From Thysanoteuthis rhombus (lineage: Eukaryota > Mollusca > Cephalopoda > Oegopsida > Thysanoteuthidae), in NCBI GenBank assembly GCA_963457665.1, contig OY735219.1, positions 39,803,477 to 39,867,476 of the forward strand: a stretch of DNA of 64,000 bases, in the 5' to 3' direction. Shown piece by piece: positions 2,456 to 60,704 of this stretch; the stretch's first letter is position 1; every line of letters starts with the position of its first letter. The notes beneath the pieces are model-generated. The model was not told the DNA's origin. It was given only the letters and a program-made list of their open reading frames with translations, and did no database searches. The position numbers and the translations under genes were made by a program.

Positions 2456-4240
2456 CATCATCATTATCATCATCAGTCTTTTAACGTCATCGTTGGACAT
2501 AGACCTTCTCAGGATCTACCACAATTCTCTATCATGGGTGCCATGGAGCTAGTATTTCCTGAATTTGTCTAGTTCTTCTCTCTATCTTGTGTTCTGTTGG
2601 CCTCGGTATCTCATATGATCTCTTAGGATCCATATTGTGAAACGTGATGTCCATCAGTTGTCTTTCATTCTTGCAACATGGCCTGCCCATTGCCATTTGA
2701 GTTTTTTAATAGTTTCTATGATGTCACAGACACCTGTTTTCTTCCTTATATACTGTACTGTCTTGTGATCTCTCCATATAAGGTTGAGCATGATTCTCTC
2801 ATGCGCACATTGCATACTTCTCAGTTTGATGGACTGTCTCTTGGTTAGGTTCCATGTTTCAGCTCCATAAGTGACTATTGTGAGAATACATTGGTTGTAT
2901 ACTCTTCTTTTTAGGATTATTTGGATTTTCTGGTTCTTGAAAGTTGAGCTTACTCTGCTGAAGGCTTGCCATCCCAGAGTGATTCTTCGCTTGATTTCCT
3001 CCTCTTTTGAGGGTCTCATGGAGATTCGTTGTCCTAGCTAGATGTAGTGGTCTGCTTTCCCCAGTTTTGCATCTTTTATCCTGACAGTTATCTTCTTATT
3101 CTCAACATGATTATTGCACATGATTTTCATTTCACTGAAGTTCATGTGTAGGCTAACTTTTTTGATTTTTTCGTTTAGATCATCTAGCATCAGTTGGAGG
3201 TTGTGTAGGTTCTCTGAAAAAAGGACAATGTCGTCTGCAAATCTAAGGTTGCTCAGATATTTACTGTCTATTTTGATTCCTCTATTTCCCAGTCCATGTT
3301 CCGGGAGATCATCTCAAGGCAGGCTGTAAAGAGTTTGGGTGCAGTTGAGCAGGCTTATAGGTCTGTAGTTGTTGAGGTCTTTGGGGTTACCTTTTCTTAT
3401 GTAGAAGTATTATAATAGCAGTGTTCCAGTCTTTCGGGACTTTACTTTGTTTCAGTCATAAGTTGAATAGAATAGCTAGCTTTCTGTTGACTCTCTTACC
3501 AGCTTTTTTGAGTAGATCGATGGTGATGTTATCTTGTCCAGGGGCTTTTCCTTTTTTTGTTTGTTTGATGGCTTGCTTTACTTCCCATGGTGTAACTTCA
3601 GAGAAGTCTCTGAACTGATTGTCAGCATCTTATGTATTCTGGTCATTGTTGTTGTATTGTCCATGTTTTGAAGAGTAGAGTTTCTGGTGAAATTCTTGGG
3701 CGCGTTCAACAATTCTGTCTCTATCTGTTGTTATGTCTCCATTTGCTTTGAGAATGCTAGTTATCTGTTTCTTTCCTGTACTGAGAGCTTTGTTTATCGC
3801 TTTAAATCTTTGACGTTTTTTGAGGTTTGTCTTGATGGCTGCTGTATACCTTCTTTTGTCTTCTCTTAGTTTTTCCTTTATTGTTTTGTTCTGTTCAATT
3901 TCTTCTATTTTCTCCCTTGTGGTCATTGGTGATTTGAGGTTTCTGCACTTTTCAATCAGTTTCATGGTTTCATCTAAGATTTTGTTAATGGTCACGGTGT
4001 TTCTTGGTTTGAACATATTGGCAGCTTCTAATAGAAAGGTTGTTATTTTGTTGTGGAGTTCGTTGACATTGGTGTTGTTTTCGTCGGTAAGGATATCAAA
4101 TCTGTTTTTCAATTCTCGCTTGAAGGCTTGGGTGAGTCATTTGGTACGTTCAGTGGCTACGGTCTAGTGTGGAACATTCTCCTGCATTCTTTATTTGCGT
4201 TTATTTGCATCTTACATCTTACCATTCTATGGTCGCCCCC
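2456..4240 (-). pseudogene. RTE-type LINE, longest copy, endonuclease to 3' end (R3)
   Basis: Antisense relic of an RTE-clade retrotransposon polyprotein (endonuclease plus reverse transcriptase). Read on the - strand from 4240 down: the apurinic endonuclease C-terminal motif GDHRMVR (usually SDHR); an Arg/Lys-rich linker, open for 160 codons at 3630-4112; the RT start with KKGKAPGQDNIT near 3530-3570; a deletion of the RT palm middle; PKLFTACLEM and YLSNLRFADDIVLF near 3220-3320, which holds the catalytic FADD; then a 121-codon frame at 2654-3019 with YGAETWNLTKR and LKWQWAGHVARM. It ends in (ATC)n at 2456. At least one frameshift and several stops. The 5' limit is a poly-C run at about 4237-4252. 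Assignment to RTE rests on the YGAETW and HVARM signatures and the trinucleotide tail. Confidence 0.9.
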
Positions 4241-6414: not shown

Positions 6415-6845
6415 TAAAAAAATCCGAATTTTCAAAAAAGAAAAAAATAATTGGATGCTATGAGATTAATTTGGCATGAACTTATATTGAAAATTGACCC
6501 CGCCCCGCCTAAAACCTATTTAGGGAGAAAAAAGCAAACAAACAAAAAATAATTTTTTCTACACATATTGAGGTGTATATGTTTACAATTTCCACCCTTT
6601 AGTTTTATTCTTTGTGTGATACATACATACATACATACATACATACATACATACATACATACATACGTGCATACATTTTAAGAAATGGATATATTTGGAC
6701 TGAATGAATCATAAATTGTGTTATATTGTATGATATGACACAATTTATTATTCATGCATACATATATATAACCAGCCAGACTAGATCGAAGACTGGAGAA
6801 ACCTATTTTGACATCTTTGGTTACAGTTTTGGTTGATGGTGTTCT
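6415..6845 (+). mobile_element. Element A copy 3, split by microsatellite expansion
   Basis: 6415-6600 carries the middle of element A (CCGAATTTTC to AATTTCCACCCTTT). The usual GATACATACATAG site has become a (CATA)n tract with about 80 bp of extra sequence, and the distal end resumes at 6765 (AACCAGCCAGAC) to 6845. The 5' quarter is missing. Confidence 0.7.
6621..6675. repeat. (CATA)n microsatellite
   Basis: About 13 CATA units with one interruption near the end, located at the tetranucleotide site of element A copy 3. Confidence 0.95.
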
Positions 6846-6959
6846 GATCATTTACCCTCCATTACCCAAGATTTCCACTCCATTGGAACAGAGAAAGTTT
6901 ATTTGATAATATTCTTATCCACTCCCATTGTCTGCGTCAGAGGATTAAGATATACTATT

Positions 6960-7620
6960 TCAAAAAGCATCACTACTGATAATTGTTCCGTCACAACGAT
7001 CAAAATCGAAAAGGCAAAGTTAAAGAAAGTAGAGTACAATATCTACATAGGACAACGAATCTACATTAAATCCTCAAAAGAGGAGGAAATCAAGCAAAAC
7101 ATTGCTCAAAGTTGGCAAGCTTCTGGCAGCGCAAGCTCAACCTTCAAAAACAAGAAAATCTCATTAGTTTTACAAAGAATGGTCTACAACCAATGCATCC
7201 TTCTGAAGTCACCTAGAGAGCTGAAACACGGAACCTAACCAAAAGACTGGCTTTCGAACTGGGAACCATGAAACATGCACACTCGAGAATCATGGTTAAC
7301 CACACGAGGAGATCACAAGACAGCACAATATATCTGAGGAGAAACAGGAGTCAGAGATATCACAGAATCCATTAAAAAACTCAAATGGCAATGAGCTGGT
7401 CATGTTGCAAGAATATTAGAAAAACACTGGGCATCACAACTCACAATATAAATCTGCAGAGAGCATATGCAAAATTGTGGCTTTCAAAATATAAGAAGAC
7501 GTGACAAACTATGCAGGTTCAGAAGGTACTTGATCTGCGACATCCATGATCAAGAGGTCTGATGAATTTTGGGAAGGTCTATGTCCAATAACAGATATTA
7601 AATGGTTAATGATGATGATT
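6960..7620 (+). pseudogene. RTE LINE 3' fragment (R4)
   Basis: Sense-strand RT C-terminal region. The open stretch 6903-7238 includes KIEKAKLKKVEYNIYIGQRI and SSKEEEIKQNIAQSWQA; frameshifts and stops follow. The rest of the fragment (GITRVRDI- and KWQ-type residues) is broken. Ends in a short (GAT)n at 7607-7619. Confidence 0.85.
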
Positions 7621-30029: not shown

Positions 30030-31275
30030 TCATTCATTAAATCGCTTCGTGGCTGATACTTTAAAACCAGTCGTGTAGAACAACATGTGTAAAGAACTCA
30101 GACCATTTTGTGGAACTGATTAGAGGGGTGCCCATTGCCTCATCAATAATGATGTACTTTGATGTGGTCAACTTCTTAAACAAAATTCCATCAGTGGAAG
30201 CCCTGCTCATATTAAGAGACAGACTAGTAAATGACAGTGTTCTAAAGGACCGCACCAGTATACCCATTAATAACTTATTGGAAATGTTAACACTTTGTGT
30301 ACGGACTATACATTTTTGGGTCCGAATATGTATCAGCAGGATCAACACTTGGCAATGGGTATTCTCTGGTTATTCCCAATATATATGTGGAATTTTTCGA
30401 AGATTTTGCCTTAAGCTCATCATCATTGAAACTGTCAGTCTGGCTTAGATATGTGGATGACATATTTATACCCTGGCCATACAAAGTTGATGTACAGGTA
30501 TTTTTTGATTATGTGAACTCAATTGATATGGTTCACAAAGGAGAAAAAAAGAAAACAACCGACTTCATTTTCTGGAGGTACCCAGTAACACGCATGGAAA
30601 GTGTTGATAACACCACAATATTCAAGAAACCGATACATATAGGGTGATACCTGAATTCTAATTTAGACCAGCCCTTCTGTGTGAAAACAGGTTGGTCTGC
30701 TGTTAGAAGAGCCGAGCAGCAATTATCAGTTGCGACCAGAATATAGAGAAAGAGGAGTTAGAAAATAAAGGCCAGGCACTCAGAAGAAATGGCCACCTAT
30801 CCAATGTCATCTTCACAAAGGAAAAGGGTATGGGGAATACTAAATATACCATGAATGGTTCCTCCTTCATTTCAATTTTCCACATTCTTCATGTTAGGTG
30901 TGTTCCAGAAGTGATACAGAAAGCTTGTAGGAGCCACAACATACAGGTCACTTTCAATAGTTATCACACACTCCGAAATTTGCTCACTAAAGTAAGTCTT
31001 CCACGAGAGAAGAGTCTGACTAATAACTGTATTTACTTTATTTCTTGTAATTATGGAGACACTGGCTGACCTCTTAAAATTCAACTCGAGAAGCAGAAAG
31101 AAGTCATAATCAAAAGGGAAACAGAAAGGTCTGGGATGGCTTATCATACCTGGAGAGAGAAAGGTAAACGCTATCCCCTCTTGGAGGAGATCTGTATCAT
31201 AGACAGGGAATGTTGTGGGAAACTGAGAAAAATCAAAGAGGTAATCAGCATTAACATGTCAACTGATTATATGAG
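30030..31275 (+). pseudogene. Penelope-like retroelement, RT core to GIY-YIG region, broken
   Basis: Relic of a Penelope-like element: a reverse transcriptase followed by a GIY-YIG endonuclease, mobile in the nucleus. + frames: FDVVNFLNKIP-EAL (RT palm start, about 30155-30205) and NNLLEMLTLCVRT; a frameshift near 30295; then EFFEDFALSSSSLK and RYVDDIFIPWP with catalytic YVDD at 30450-30461; FKKPIHIG near 30625-30645; a frameshift, then CVPEVIQK and YHTLRNLL (30905-30990), and NCIYFISCNYGDTG before a stop at 31067. After that stop the frame still reads SGMAYHTWREKG and EEICIIDREC-RK-KEVISI (31130-31250), the usual C-terminal end of the nuclease domain. The N-terminus and pseudo-LTRs are not seen. 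The hammerhead pair at 33912-34303 lies 2.6 kb downstream. Confidence 0.8.
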
Positions 31276-32686
31276 TCAGAATTCAACCTGATGTGGTTTC
31301 CTATGCTCAAGGTGGACAAGGTATGAAAATCCAGGCCTAACAAGGAAAGGATAAAAAAGGGCGTCATCCAAATCCAACTTTATAACATTGGGAAAATTCT
31401 ACTTACCTATGTCACATTCGGATAGTACACCTGAAGGAGGCTGTTGATTGGATTGGTTGGAACATTTTGTTAACAACATAAACAACATGGAGGGGTTCAA
31501 TCATTTGGGAAATCTTTAAAATAGATTTTGTATAAAATGAAACTCAAGGAAGAATGAGATGAAAAGTTTGAACTTTGAAGCTGAAAATAAAAGAGATATT
31601 GATCTTAGTTAATTGAAATATGTGTCTAGAATGTTTTATTGAATGTCATCATGAAAACAAGAAAACAAGCTTGGCTGTGATAGAGACAAACTCCCTTGCT
31701 TCATTAAAATCTGAAAGGTAAACAAAACGGACTTTGTTTCTCCATACAGAATTATTCCAAAACCGTATCCCATTTCAACTCCTCTATTCATTACAAATTC
31801 AATGTTTATAAAAAAGAAAATGCCTTTTAACTTTGAAACAAACAAAATACTACAGGGAACATGGTTTAGACACTCAAAAATTGATTTGTTATTGTTTGTT
31901 CGGGGAAATAAAATACATCATATTCTATTCTTTTCTATTTTATTCATCATATCGAAGAAATTTGACACTGATATTTTTTTGTTGTTTATCCCATCACCAG
32001 TTTTTGTGTACATCATTTTTTTTATGTGTATGACTCATCTCTTTTTGGTGAGGTAAACTTGTTATGATATGAAAACAAAATCAACTCTTGGGTTTGAAAA
32101 AAATGTGTCCTTGTCTATTATCATCAATAAGAATATGAATGGTATCAGTTTGTAATCTCAACACAGTGATACATCTCTCAACGAGGACTATCCGTTCCAC
32201 AAGACATCTCTTTATAAGAATAATTAGATAAATGGGATTTCCATAATTCTTTCTAAATTAAAACATTGGACCCCTAAAACCTCACCAATAATGTTGTAAA
32301 TAATTTTGATGTAATAATTACTTTCTAAATGATGTATAAATACAAATAGACTTGTAAATAAAGTGATTAATAGATAATCTTATCATATGTCTGAAAATAA
32401 TCACCTGGATACTAGATATGAATCTAGATAATTATAAATGAAATCTGGATGGTTCTGGATAATTTTATGTAATTTCACAGCTTTTTTTCCTTGTTAACTG
32501 AAAATTTTTCACTGAGAGATTTCTTTTTTGGCAATTGGAACCTCTCGCTAAGTGAAATTCCGTTATAAGAGCCTTTACGATGAAAGGTGCCACTGTGCTA
32601 CACTTATCTCATTCTCCTGACAATACACTTCCTTTACAAATGGATGTGCAATCAATTATCACTTGGGAAGAATTGTTCCAATAGTT
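31276..32686. other. Unassigned 1.4-kb spacer
   Basis: No family recognised. 32505-32595 (CTCGCTAAGTGAAATTCCGT) resembles a widespread animal repeat motif of the type TTATAACGGA; I cannot name it. Confidence 0.35.

Positions 32687-33860: not shown

Positions 33861-33911
<51 letters not shown>
33861..33911. repeat. (TA)n microsatellite
   Basis: About 50 bp of TA repeat immediately 3' (on the - strand) of hammerhead copy 1. Confidence 0.95.
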
Positions 33912-33914
<3 letters not shown>

Positions 33915-33919
<5 letters not shown>

Positions 33920-33975
33920 GTCATCTACAGACAGCTGTTTCGATGTATTACATCTCTTCAGTGTGGCTATAAACT
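33915..33975 (-). ncRNA. Type-I hammerhead ribozyme, copy 1
   Basis: On the - strand in order: CUGAAGA (33955-33961); stem II GAUGU-AAU-ACAUC (33942-33954); GAAA then a mini stem III, the palindrome CAGCUG at 33932-33937, in which C pairs with G around loop AGCU; cleavage triplet GUC (33930-33932). Stem I starts ACA/UGU next to the core and closes again with GUU/GAC (33972-33974 with 33920-33922). All invariant core positions are present. One inner stem I pair is lost (C against A). Confidence 0.8.
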
Positions 33976-34225
33976 TTCCATTATCCCATCCAGTACTGCG
34001 AGGCAGAATTGAAACCTTCACTTCAGACCCGTAGACCATTATCCTACCTCTGGACTACGGAACTGGACAGGCAGTAAGGCAGAATTTAAGTGTTATATTT
34101 AAATTACACAGAAATCCCTCATCCACCAGAGTGCTCAATTCCTATAGAAAAGCATTGCATAAGCTTACAGTGGATGAGTTACCTCACTTGAAAAGTGCTC
34201 GACCCTGAATAGAGGACCATTAATT

Positions 34226-34286
34226 ATTGTGTCATCCACAGACAGCTGTTTCGATGTATTACATCTCTTCAGTGTGACTATAGACT
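34226..34286 (-). ncRNA. Type-I hammerhead ribozyme, copy 2
   Basis: Same core as copy 1: CUGAAGA (34266-34272), stem II (34253-34265), GAAA, CAGCUG mini stem III, GUC (34241-34243). Stem I is better: CACA/UGUG next to the core plus a G-U pair, and outer GUC/GAC all Watson-Crick (34283-34285 with 34231-34233). Predicted cut between the bases complementary to 34241 and 34240. Confidence 0.85.
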
Positions 34287-34303
34287 TTCCATTATCCCAT
34301 CCA

Positions 34304-34980
34304 ATATATATATATACACAAAATTGTTTGCCATTTGGATGTAAGGTGATCCAACAGAATGTTCATAAAAAGACATTTTTTGGAGGTGGAGAAAAATTCA
34401 AGAGAAAAAACAGGTGTTCCATCTCGAAAAAATTTTTATTATCACATGGGCATGTCCTGATGCATTTCAATTTTTGCCCGCCACCTTTTTTGAGAAATTA
34501 GAAGTGATTACAGGTAAAAAGGTGTGCTTTTTACACATTTGAGATTTGATGAATGAAGTGAGGAGTTTTCTGTGTTGTGGGTTGTTTAGTAGGAGTGGGA
34601 AGGGAGGTGATTCATCTGTATAGGTGAGAATCAGGTTTGGTCTGAAATAAAGAAGGGTCTAAGAGAAGAAGGGCCAGCAGGTGTTTGTATCTGTGTCTAT
34701 GAGTATCAGATTGGTTTGAGATAAGGAGGGTTAGTGAGAGGTGGGGTCAGGATGGAATCAGGATCAGGATTTCTTCCTCTCGAATTTCTCTTCATCTTTC
34801 AATCATCATTTTACCAACATATACAATATTGGAAAGTATATACACGAGCGACTTTCTTGGATTATCTCCACACTCATTAAAAACATATTGCTACAATTCA
34901 ATATCTTCTTTGAAAGTTTAATTTTGGTTTTAGCTGCAAGAAAATAACATGAAGGTAATCATGAAAAAAATGAAAAAATA
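34304..34980. other. Unassigned spacer with G-rich direct repeats
   Basis: 34620-34765 holds loose repeats around TGAGAATCAGGTTTGGTCTG / TGAGTATCAGATTGGTTTGAG and GAAGGGTC / GGAGGGTTAG. No element recognised. Confidence 0.4.
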
Positions 34981-34984
34981 CTTG

Positions 34985-35265
34985 CATGGACACATAGCGC
35001 AGTGATTACAGCATCAGACAAATTACTGAAAAGGTTCGATCCTAGTGCAAGACAGTACAACAATACTACTAATGCTAAGAGGGTAGTACAGTCAATATAC
35101 CCCCGTCAGATAAATAAAGTGTTCGGTTCGTTATTTCCCCACATCTACCAGATGATACCTGACGAAGGCCGTAGAGTGCAATGGCCGAAACGTTGTATAA
35201 AAAACAACCAAGATGAGGATGGTTCGAATATCAATAGAAATACTTGTATGTACTTTGGGTTTTGA
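34985..35265 (+). repeat. tRNA-like head with hammerhead-like motif downstream
   Basis: 34988-35045 has ACATAGCGCAGTGATTACAG (A-box-like) and AAGGTTCGATCCTAGTGC (good B box). At 35159-35192 lies CTGACGA, then GGCC/GGCC around a 12-nt loop, then GAAAC: hammerhead-like, but with an extra A before stem II and no pairing stem I, so probably inactive or a look-alike. Related CCATAGA-GGCTGAAA motifs occur at 63028 and 63827. Confidence 0.5.
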
Positions 35266-48708: not shown

Positions 48709-49600
48709 TCATCATCATCATCAATGAATTGTCCATCATGGGGTATAGACCTTCCCCGGGATTTACCACATCACTCTATTGTGGGTATCACGGAGCCAAT
48801 ATTTTCTGAATCTGTCCAGTTTGTCTTGCCATGCCATATTCTACCAGCCTCAGTTCCCCATTTGATCTTTGGGGATCTATGCTGTAAGTCATGATGTCCA
48901 TTGGTTGTCTGCCATTCTTGCAACATTGCCAGCCCTGATGGTTTCTATGATGTCTTGTACTCCTGTTTTTTCCCCCAATACATTGCGCTGTCTTGTGATC
49001 TATCCATGTGACATTGAGCATGACTCTTTCATAAGCAGGTTGCATGGTTCTCAGTTTGAGGGTCAGTTTCTTGGTTAGATTCCATGTTTCAGCTCCATAG
49101 GTGACTATTGGGAGGATGCATTAGTTGTATACTCTTCTTTTTGAGATTAATAGGATTTCCTTGTTCTTAAAGTTTGAGTTTGCTCAACTGAAGGCTTGCC
49201 ATTCAAAAGTGATTTTTTGCTAGATATGTTCTTCTTTTGAGGATGTGATGGAGACTCGTTGTCTTCAGTAGATGTAGTGGTCTATTTTGTCCAGCTTTAT
49301 GTTTCCAATTTTGATTATTGTGCGTTTATTTCCGACGTATTTGTTGTGCATGATCTTTTGTTGTTAAAGTTCATGTGAAGGCCAACTTTCTTTCTTTACC
49401 TCATTCGGTTCATCTAGCATTGGTTGGAGGTCATGAAAGTTCTGTGCAAAAAAGATGATGTTGTCTGCAAATCTGAGGTTATTCAGGTATTTGACGTCTA
49501 CTCTGATTCCTTTGATTTCCAAGTGTAGGTGCCTGGAGATCATCTCAAGGCAGGTTGTGAAGAGTTTGGCTGAGTTGGTATCACTTTGTCCTACCCTTTT
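48709..49600 (-). pseudogene. RTE LINE 3' fragment including RT catalytic box (R10)
   Basis: Antisense, tail at 48709-48725. Frame 49364-49684 reads SAKLFTTCLEMIS, then KYLNNLRFADNIIFFAQNFH: the catalytic FADD is FADN here. Downstream 48788-49045 reads CAYER-type, MLNVTWIDHKTAQCI and RHHRNHQGWQCCKNG (frameshifted KWQWAGHVARM region). Starts inside the palm domain. Confidence 0.85.
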
Positions 49601-58440: not shown

Positions 58441-59130
58441 ATTATCATCATCATCAGTCTTAAAACGTCTGTAGTTGGACATAGACCTTCTTTTTAAATT
58501 TATCCAGGATTCACCATACCTCTCTATCGTGGTCATAAAGAGTCACTACTTTCTGAATTTGTCTGGTATATCTCTCCATCTTGTATTCTGCCAACCTCAG
58601 TAGTACATGTGATCTGAGGGGATCCATGTTGTGAGTTGAGATGTCCAGCGGTTGTCTGCCATTCTTGCAACATGACCAGCCCATTGCTATTTTTCTGGTG
58701 TATTCTATGATGTCTTGAACTTGTGTTTTCTCCCTGATATACTGTGCTGTATTGTGATCCCTCCAAGTGATGTTGATCATAGTTCTTTCATGTGCAAGTT
58801 GCGTGCTTCTCAGTTTGCTGGTCAGTCTCTTGGTTAGGATCCATGTTTCAGCTCCATAGGTGACAATCGGGAGGATGCATTGGTAATATATTCTTTTTAG
58901 AACTAATGGGATCTTCTTGTTTCTGAAGGTTGAGCTTGCTCTGCCAAAGCCTTGCCTTCCAAGAGTGATACTTTGCTTGATTTCTTCTTCTTTTGAATAT
59001 TTCATGGAGATTTGTTGTTCTAGGTAGATGTAGTGGTCTACTTTCTCCAGCTTTGTGTTTACAATTTTAATTGTTGAGTTTCATTTCTGAAACAATAATT
59101 GTACATGACTTTTGTTTTGCTGAAGGTCAT
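58441..59130 (-). pseudogene. RTE LINE 3' fragment (R12), 164-codon open frame
   Basis: Antisense. Frame 58511-59005 is open for 164 codons: YSKEEEIKQSITLGRQGFGR, YGAETWILTKRLTSKLRSTQ, ERTMINITWRDHNTAQYI, then MGWSCCKNG (frameshifted WQWAGHVARM). ATTATCAT occurs at both edges (58441-58448 and about 59128-59135), a likely target duplication. Inserted into or beside the hAT relic. Confidence 0.9.
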
Positions 59131-59987: not shown

Positions 59988-60248
59988 GGTCTGATTAGTC
60001 ATTTAAAAGAGACCATTACAGGACCAATATCTTTTGGCTGCATGCTGTGATGGGGTGATCAATTGGAAAATTGGAGAAAATAAGTTACTTCTCTCACTGT
60101 AGTTGGGTAGTGATCATTAAAAAAGTCTGAATGTCTAAAAAAATTACGCGTGAATACAGCCGAACACAAACTAAGGGATCAATTTAGTATAATCTTATAT
60201 TGCAAATTGAACCCTGTCTGTAAGAACTGATTTGGGGGGAGAATTTTG

Positions 60249-60704
60249 ATCCCATTAATCCTAAAAAGAAGAATATACAGTCAATGCATCATCCCGATAG
60301 TCACCTATGGAGCTGAAACATGGAATCTAACCAAGAGACTGACCTGCAAACTGAAAAGCATACTATGTGCACATGAAAGAAACATGCTCAATCTTACATG
60401 GAGAGATCACAAGACAGCACAATATATCAGGAAGAACACGGGGATTCTAGACATCATAGAATCTATTAGAAATCCTAAATGGCAATGGGCCAGTCATGTT
60501 GCAAGAATGACAGACAACCACTGGACATCACGACTCACAACATGGATCCCCTCAGATCACAAGCACAACCGAAGCCGGCAGAATATAAGATGGAGAGATG
60601 AACTAAACCTATTCCGAAAGTACTGGCTCCGCGATGTCCCCGATAGAGAGGTGTGGCGATTCCTTGGAAAGATCAGTGTCCAATGACGGGCGATAAAAGG
60701 ATGA

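Follow-up and report, generated by a model that had tools for sequence, protein, structure and literature searches.

Two hammerhead-like sequences lie on the minus strand of a 64,000-nt stretch of the genome of the squid Thysanoteuthis rhombus (GCA_963457665.1, contig OY735219.1, positions 39,803,477 to 39,867,476; this whole stretch is called the window below), with a tRNA-like segment between them. A preliminary description of the DNA proposed that they bound a candidate retrozyme. The locus raises the question of whether the two sequences are real hammerheads, to what kind of element they belong, and how copies of such an element come to be inserted.

Paired hammerheads at unit spacing

The direct repeats at 33912-33995 and 34223-34306 measure 84 nt each, are 95% identical and are spaced 311 bp apart. 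Read on the minus strand, both carry CTGAAGA / GATGT-AAT-ACATC / GAAA / CAGCTG / TC, the complete letters of a type I hammerhead with a 5-bp stem II and a 3-nt loop. Stem I of the family consists of CCACA/UGUGG and a distal GUC/GAC; in the window copies the distal part is GUU/GAC and GUC/GAC, so the stem I pairing noted in the preliminary description is present, together with one C-A mismatch in the 33918-33979 copy and one U-G in the 34229-34290 copy. Core, three helices and a GUC-type cut site occur together in both hammerheads. When up to three mismatches were allowed, the core pattern matched three times in the window (the two hammerheads exactly, a third site with three mismatches), against a mean of 0.17 matches in shuffled sequence and three matches in 0 of 100 shuffles.

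Covariance models gave scores that depend on the model. Rfam Hammerhead_1 scored the pair at 21.2 and 20.2 bits (E 0.016 and 0.036), below its gathering score of 34, and these sub-threshold matches appear only with a 551-nt input; over the whole 64-kb window neither hammerhead was listed and nothing reached the gathering score. On 20 further short loci of the family the best Rfam score was 27.4 bits, with every listed copy below the cut-off. Our own model, built from 46 copies of the T class only (see below), found 34229-34290 at E 1.8e-21 and 33918-33979 at E 1.1e-20, both being A-class hammerheads, and no other match in the 64 kb up to E 10. In the covariance search that had been proposed as a check, the two hammerheads stand out with the family model and stay below the gathering score with that of Rfam. 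The paired hammerheads are confirmed as a real feature of the window, and the parts of the element are as follows.

33912..34303, minus strand: retrozyme copy of about 1.26 units (hammerhead, body, hammerhead), from the direct repeats, 40 scored relatives and the fixed 3′ end in a sample of 89 copies
5′ end near 34303 and 3′ end at 33912, minus strand: ends of the retrozyme copy, from end comparison
34229..34290, minus strand: 5′ hammerhead, predicted cut 34241/34240, covariance model 85.0 bits
33918..33979, minus strand: 3′ hammerhead, predicted cut 33930/33929, covariance model 82.2 bits
33930..34240, minus strand: predicted 311-nt RNA between the two cuts, from the cut positions; GC 41%
34006..34057, minus strand: weak tRNA-like stretch with A-box-like and B-box-like blocks, from ARAGORN at lowered thresholds
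34057-34047, minus strand: A-box-like block, from its letters
34016-34006, minus strand: B-box-like block, from its letters
33863..33913, no strand: TA microsatellite on the 3′ side of the copy, overlapping its last 2 bases, from a repeat scan
34304..34317, no strand: short TA run on the 5′ side of the copy, from the sequence

Folded as a circle, the 311-nt unit has a predicted minimum free energy of -88.0, compared with -74.7 (sd 4.4) in 100 shuffles. No open reading frame of at least 110 aa overlaps the retrozyme copy, and the 311-nt unit does not hold the reverse transcriptase (RT) gene of a Penelope-like element (PLE).

Copy number, subclasses and decay

A strict core pattern with stem II left free matched 11,801 times in the 2.73-Gb assembly, and its reversed form 0 times; the strict pattern matched 10 times in a 257-Gb prokaryote collection and not at all in the viral contigs searched. 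With the whole element (395 nt) as query, 40 genome relatives were scored, most of them near full cover and 89-94% identical. The nearest relative of the window copy among these 40 is 94% identical, which gives no sign of recent activity.

For comparison between copies we used a sample of 89 exact-core matches, those first listed on contig C1. A hundred places were listed of the 11,801, of which 30 loci and 60 regions cover 92, and L053 was dropped because it coincides with L052. Selection for an exact core makes the letters of core and stem III invariant in this sample. The alignment (A1) excludes L094 and L100 and includes the two window copies.

The second pair of stem II is U-A in 45 of the 89 copies, A-U in 42 and something else in two (one G-U), which divides the family into two subclasses, the T class and the A class. 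Over the 15-pair structure, both partners are changed in 49 cells, whereas shuffles gave 26.4 and 0 of 500 reached 49; of these cells, 43 fall at this second stem II pair. Neither the count of pairs with changes in both partners (6 versus 4.6 in shuffles, 138 of 500 as high) nor the number of extra pair types (18 versus 16.5, 127 of 500 as high) is in excess; the compensatory signal comes mainly from one stem II pair. Stem I pairing stands at the permutation level (384 versus 383 of 445), as expected for copies that decay after insertion.

The same decay is visible in 39 relatives picked by whole-element similarity, where divergence is 5.6% in the core and 5.7% in the body, with no purifying selection on the core seen in these genomic copies; at non-CpG-like sites the values are 4.1% and 5.3%. 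Neutral decay of the core is expected, since copies decay once inserted. Two core-complete hammerheads are kept in 8 of the 39 relatives, one in 24 and none in 7. Paired hammerheads diverge by 7.2% within a locus and by 7.6% between loci (39 loci; 96 of 5000 permutations as low), so slight a difference that it weighs against the mechanism proposed below; as a test for origin of the two hammerheads from one molecule it is weak.

Ends of the copies and TA-repeat flanks

In the 89 copies the element has a shared 3′ end, GTC^TGTGGATGACACAATAAT, 18 nt past the predicted cut, after which the similarity decays, mostly into TA repeat. The 5′ ends, located after masking simple repeats, are variable: 20 of the 89 lie 176-201 nt upstream of CTGA and 17 form a second cluster 240-265 nt upstream of it, at a distance from the 3′ end that is close to one unit, while 6 copies in this survey are longer. 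A second local alignment agreed with many of these 5′ ends, not all, and ran into the flanks in several copies. Most sampled copies hold one unit or less. Because the 5′ ends differ between copies, the end repeats of the element are probably not long terminal repeats (LTRs).

Head-to-tail copies exist nonetheless, as a 23-mer spanning the unit junction occurs exactly 603 times in the genome, in agreement with the multimers that the preliminary description had suggested looking for. Among the 89 copies, a regular expression found letters of a following unit in 10 (some perhaps false) and an upstream core in 3. In 20 copies exceeding one unit the visible 5′ ends are scattered, and by eye at least 6 lie beyond the 120 nt fetched. 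We considered the cut site as the usual 5′ end and rejected it, as among these 20 copies only L148 and L156 begin within a few nt of the cut. Two of the 89 copies (L068 and L075) begin at or beside the cut site, where a template cleaved at its 5′ end would make them begin; they are too few to judge.

TA repeat is the common neighbor of the copies. A TA run of at least 12 is found in 61 of 89 3′ flanks and 43 of 89 5′ flanks, with 25 of 89 copies having it on both sides, compared with 86 of 2114 control windows of 48 nt. In wider windows, a TA run of at least 10 is found on at least one side in 77 of 81 copies (35 both, 17 5′ only, 25 3′ only, 4 none); this count omits L055, L094, L096, L097, L100, L116, L120 and L123, and the control belongs to the 48-nt test only. 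TA on one side is not positively associated with TA on the other (odds ratio 0.33, p 0.07; 81 copies), a pattern that would fit if copies split a repeat close to one edge, or if some of them acquired a tail. The TA-repeat flanks hide any target site duplication, which in metazoan retrozymes is longer than 4 bp when present.

Two pairs of loci, L094/L097 and L096/L100, have long common flanks with the retrozyme at the same place. They were considered as hammerheads joined to other repeat families, an idea we dropped because with such flanks they look like duplicated segments. Compared with L097, L094 has an extra stretch of about 355 bp after the hammerhead, perhaps the gain or loss of one unit.

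The tRNA-like segment

The segment between the hammerheads had been described as tRNA-like, with A and B box-like blocks. The blocks exist and the likeness exceeds that of shuffled sequence, but it is weak: ARAGORN at default settings found no tRNA in the window, and the Rfam tRNA model was listed neither for the 551-nt element region nor, up to E 5, for any of 20 copies. With the threshold lowered to 95%, ARAGORN accepted 0 of 58 copies, at 80% it accepted 7 (five shuffles gave 1, 0, 0, 2 and 1) and at 70% it accepted 26 (shuffles 6, 2, 9, 4 and 9), so some of the tRNA likeness is real. Among 20-column windows, the A-box stretch is the most divergent in the T class (0.276) and takes a middle rank in the A class (0.079); given its divergence in the T class, a conserved pol III promoter is unproven, and we treat the tRNA-like part of the squid retrozyme as a lead. 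The SINE-like Sm-alpha repeat of schistosomes also combines a hammerhead with pol III-type boxes.

The placement of the boxes does not support the earlier proposal of a pol III transcript that cuts itself twice. They lie in mid-unit, between the two hammerheads and downstream of the 5′ one, so that transcription from an internal (type 2) promoter would begin within the unit and take in the 3′ hammerhead only, and in the window copy the stretch from the 5′ hammerhead to the A box also contains TTTT twice (34194-34191 and 34151-34148). For a double cut, read-through or a multimer transcript would be needed.

Proposed mechanism and alternatives

We consider it probable that the element in the window is a decaying member of a squid family of non-autonomous, non-LTR retrozymes, whose tandem RNA would be self-cut, circularised and copied into DNA by target-primed reverse transcription (TPRT) at a TA repeat. 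Anatomy, copy number, the stem II swap, copy ends and TA flanks are observed; from them we infer all of the RNA and enzyme steps. A source RNA of tandem 311-nt units would cut itself at the hammerheads. Helix III is the palindrome CAGCUG with 1-2 intramolecular pairs, which makes it probable that two hammerheads act as a dimer, as reported for amphibians, and monomer circles would then be stable; the duplex between two such palindromes is predicted at -11.1 kcal/mol. Judging from the family, the tRNA ligase of the host would probably circularise the unit. Once alone in a circle, a hammerhead is expected to be weak, leaving the cut site sealed: its predicted alternative fold has -15.6 kcal/mol versus -8.5 kcal/mol for the hammerhead fold, and for the lone window hammerheads the predictions are -15.9 versus -6.0 and -13.3 versus -3.6 kcal/mol. 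An RT from another element would begin copying at the A/U patch ACAAUAAU, with DNA opened in a TA repeat as the primer, and would go on for up to about one turn, sometimes further. The 3′ end of the copies would then be fixed and the 5′ end variable.

Since the sampled copies cross the cut site, the template would be uncut or re-closed RNA and not a self-cut linear monomer, and either a circle or an uncut multimer fits. A circular template would explain both the head-to-tail copies and the stop near one turn; as both 5′-end clusters are A/T-rich, joining by TA microhomology could also explain the one-unit stop without a circle. The start at ACAAUAAU beside the TA repeat suggests priming by TA target DNA. 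More tentatively, it is possible that the circular RNA is itself the TPRT template, with TA DNA annealing to the A/U patch to give a fixed start 18 nt past a sealed cut site and about one turn of copying, and with a palindromic helix III through which multimers are cut and monomer circles stay closed. If true, an animal retrozyme would gain a site preference and a handle on its mobilising element.

A common 3′ end followed by TA repeat, with variable 5′ ends, is also SINE-like. Together with the weak tRNA likeness of the unit and the predominance of copies of one unit or less, it would suit an ordinary SINE of tRNA origin that ends in a (TA)n tail and is made from linear RNA, in which the hammerhead is a passenger or a 3′ trimmer and no circle is formed. 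We find this explanation unlikely, as a start set by the internal promoter is expected about 170 nt from the 3′ end, where no cluster of 5′ ends lies, TA repeat is present on the 5′ side too (52 of 81 copies), and the junction 23-mer marks head-to-tail copies. That some repeat of another kind resembles a hammerhead by chance and does not act as a ribozyme is very improbable: stem II stays paired through its swap in both subclasses, the full core, stems I-III and cut site are all found together, and the motif recurs at unit spacing, as in known retrozymes, even though Rfam scores below the cut-off in every listed copy and the core decays neutrally, at the rate of the body. Scarcely credible is an origin of the retrozyme, by truncation, from the squid PLE family that has a 3′ piece 0.7 kb away (34985-35242). 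A type I-like minimal hammerhead does sit on 7 of 8 PLE 3′ ends, but the sole similarity of the retrozyme to these eight 3′ regions is an 18-nt match (E 0.21), stems II and III differ, and the PLE ends are without TA repeat.

Relation to known hammerhead elements

By the features that can be checked in sequence, the family is a metazoan non-LTR retrozyme, in keeping with the candidate retrozyme of the preliminary description. In the sections of Cervera and de la Pena (2020, PMC7229834) used here, such elements have a type I hammerhead, units of 170-400 nt, GC below 45-50% and thousands of copies, are without LTR-type protein genes, and share their genome with PLEs that carry minimal hammerheads. 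The squid family is alike in its type I hammerhead, 311-nt unit, GC of 41%, thousands of dispersed copies, lack of LTR-type protein genes and co-resident PLEs with minimal hammerheads; the stem II swap between its subclasses also supports the assignment. Hammerhead-bounded repeats of about 150-450 bp, as dimers or more, are found here as well (311-bp spacing, with head-to-tail units elsewhere). In contrast, the common 3′ end 18 nt past the cut and the TA repeat beside 77 of 81 copies are absent from those sections, and the family further differs in its weak tRNA-like stretch and in having mostly one unit or less instead of long tandem arrays.

Axolotl hammerheads with a very weak palindromic helix III work as dimers (HHR_Amex1, same sections of PMC7229834). 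The squid hammerhead resembles those of the axolotl and newt satellites described there, with a very weak helix III closed over a palindrome and dimer action to be expected, while sequence and host phylum differ. Plant LTR retrozymes (PMC4918200, as outlined in PMC7229834) have type III hammerheads, LTRs, a PBS, a PPT and circles of 600-800 nt; the squid retrozyme shares with them two hammerheads that bound the unit, and circle formation is a feature of the plant elements. PLEs, in the part of a 2020 review used here (PMC7761336), likewise carry a type I hammerhead in a retroelement, and such a PLE end is present in the window, but at 311 nt the squid unit has no room for an RT gene, and its helices and insertion sites differ from theirs. 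According to the same part of the review, metazoan retrozyme repeats have no conserved motif that reveals a partner retrotransposon and no apparent promoters. For cephalopod hammerheads, the one relevant item found in the literature gives 235 Rfam hammerheads for the giant squid (PMC6962438).

New in the present family are the host, the shared end with its TA preference, and an amphibian-like weak helix III in a mollusc. The shared 3′ end and the preference for TA repeats are a clue to the partner, for which an element with the same end rule should be sought; on the evidence of its 8 sampled ends, the neighboring PLE is not a likely one.

Neighboring retroelement pieces

At 34985-35242 (plus strand) the window contains a fragment from the 3′ end of a young PLE family of the squid, to which it is 83-85% identical; seven other ends of the family are 91-99% identical to one of its members (L170). 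Positions 35159-35197 of this piece are a minimal hammerhead whose stem II has 6 bp (GGCCGU/AUGGCC); it folds with a z of -3.2, and Rfam does not list it. Minimal hammerheads are present in 7 of the 8 PLE 3′ ends fetched, which were hand-picked from 150 scored matches. An RT domain was found in a related open frame, and GIY-YIG in two listed relatives. None of the 8 ends adjoins a TA run, the single TA run being about 700 nt beyond the end of L176, and for want of a TA preference at the sampled ends we rejected this PLE as the mobilising partner. Its presence fits the reported co-occurrence of retrozymes and PLEs, which does not make it the partner.

Decayed remains of a PLE-type RT, with stops, lie at 30065-31290 (plus strand); their best genome relatives, among 150 scored of 849 candidates, are 38-50% identical. 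Five further pieces, at 2654-3037 (minus), 6837-7238 (plus), 48788-49120 (minus), 58511-59080 (minus) and 60231-60686 (plus), are presumably RTE-like C-terminal remains; Pfam listed nothing for two of the five. RTE was also rejected as a partner, since (GAT)n-type letters, and not TA, stand at 4 of the 5 RTE-like ends that were read in the window. Elsewhere in the assembly, contigs C198 and C514 are mitochondrial sequence assembled as multimers, with COX1 twice per approximately 20.5 kb. The COX1 protein shows 98% identity to four clusters, those of Histioteuthidae, Teuthowenia, Mastigoteuthis and a Decapodiformes group that includes Illex, and 96% identity to Euprymna and Sepia, in line with a decapodiform and probably oegopsid squid; a duplicated COX1 is typical of oegopsid squids.
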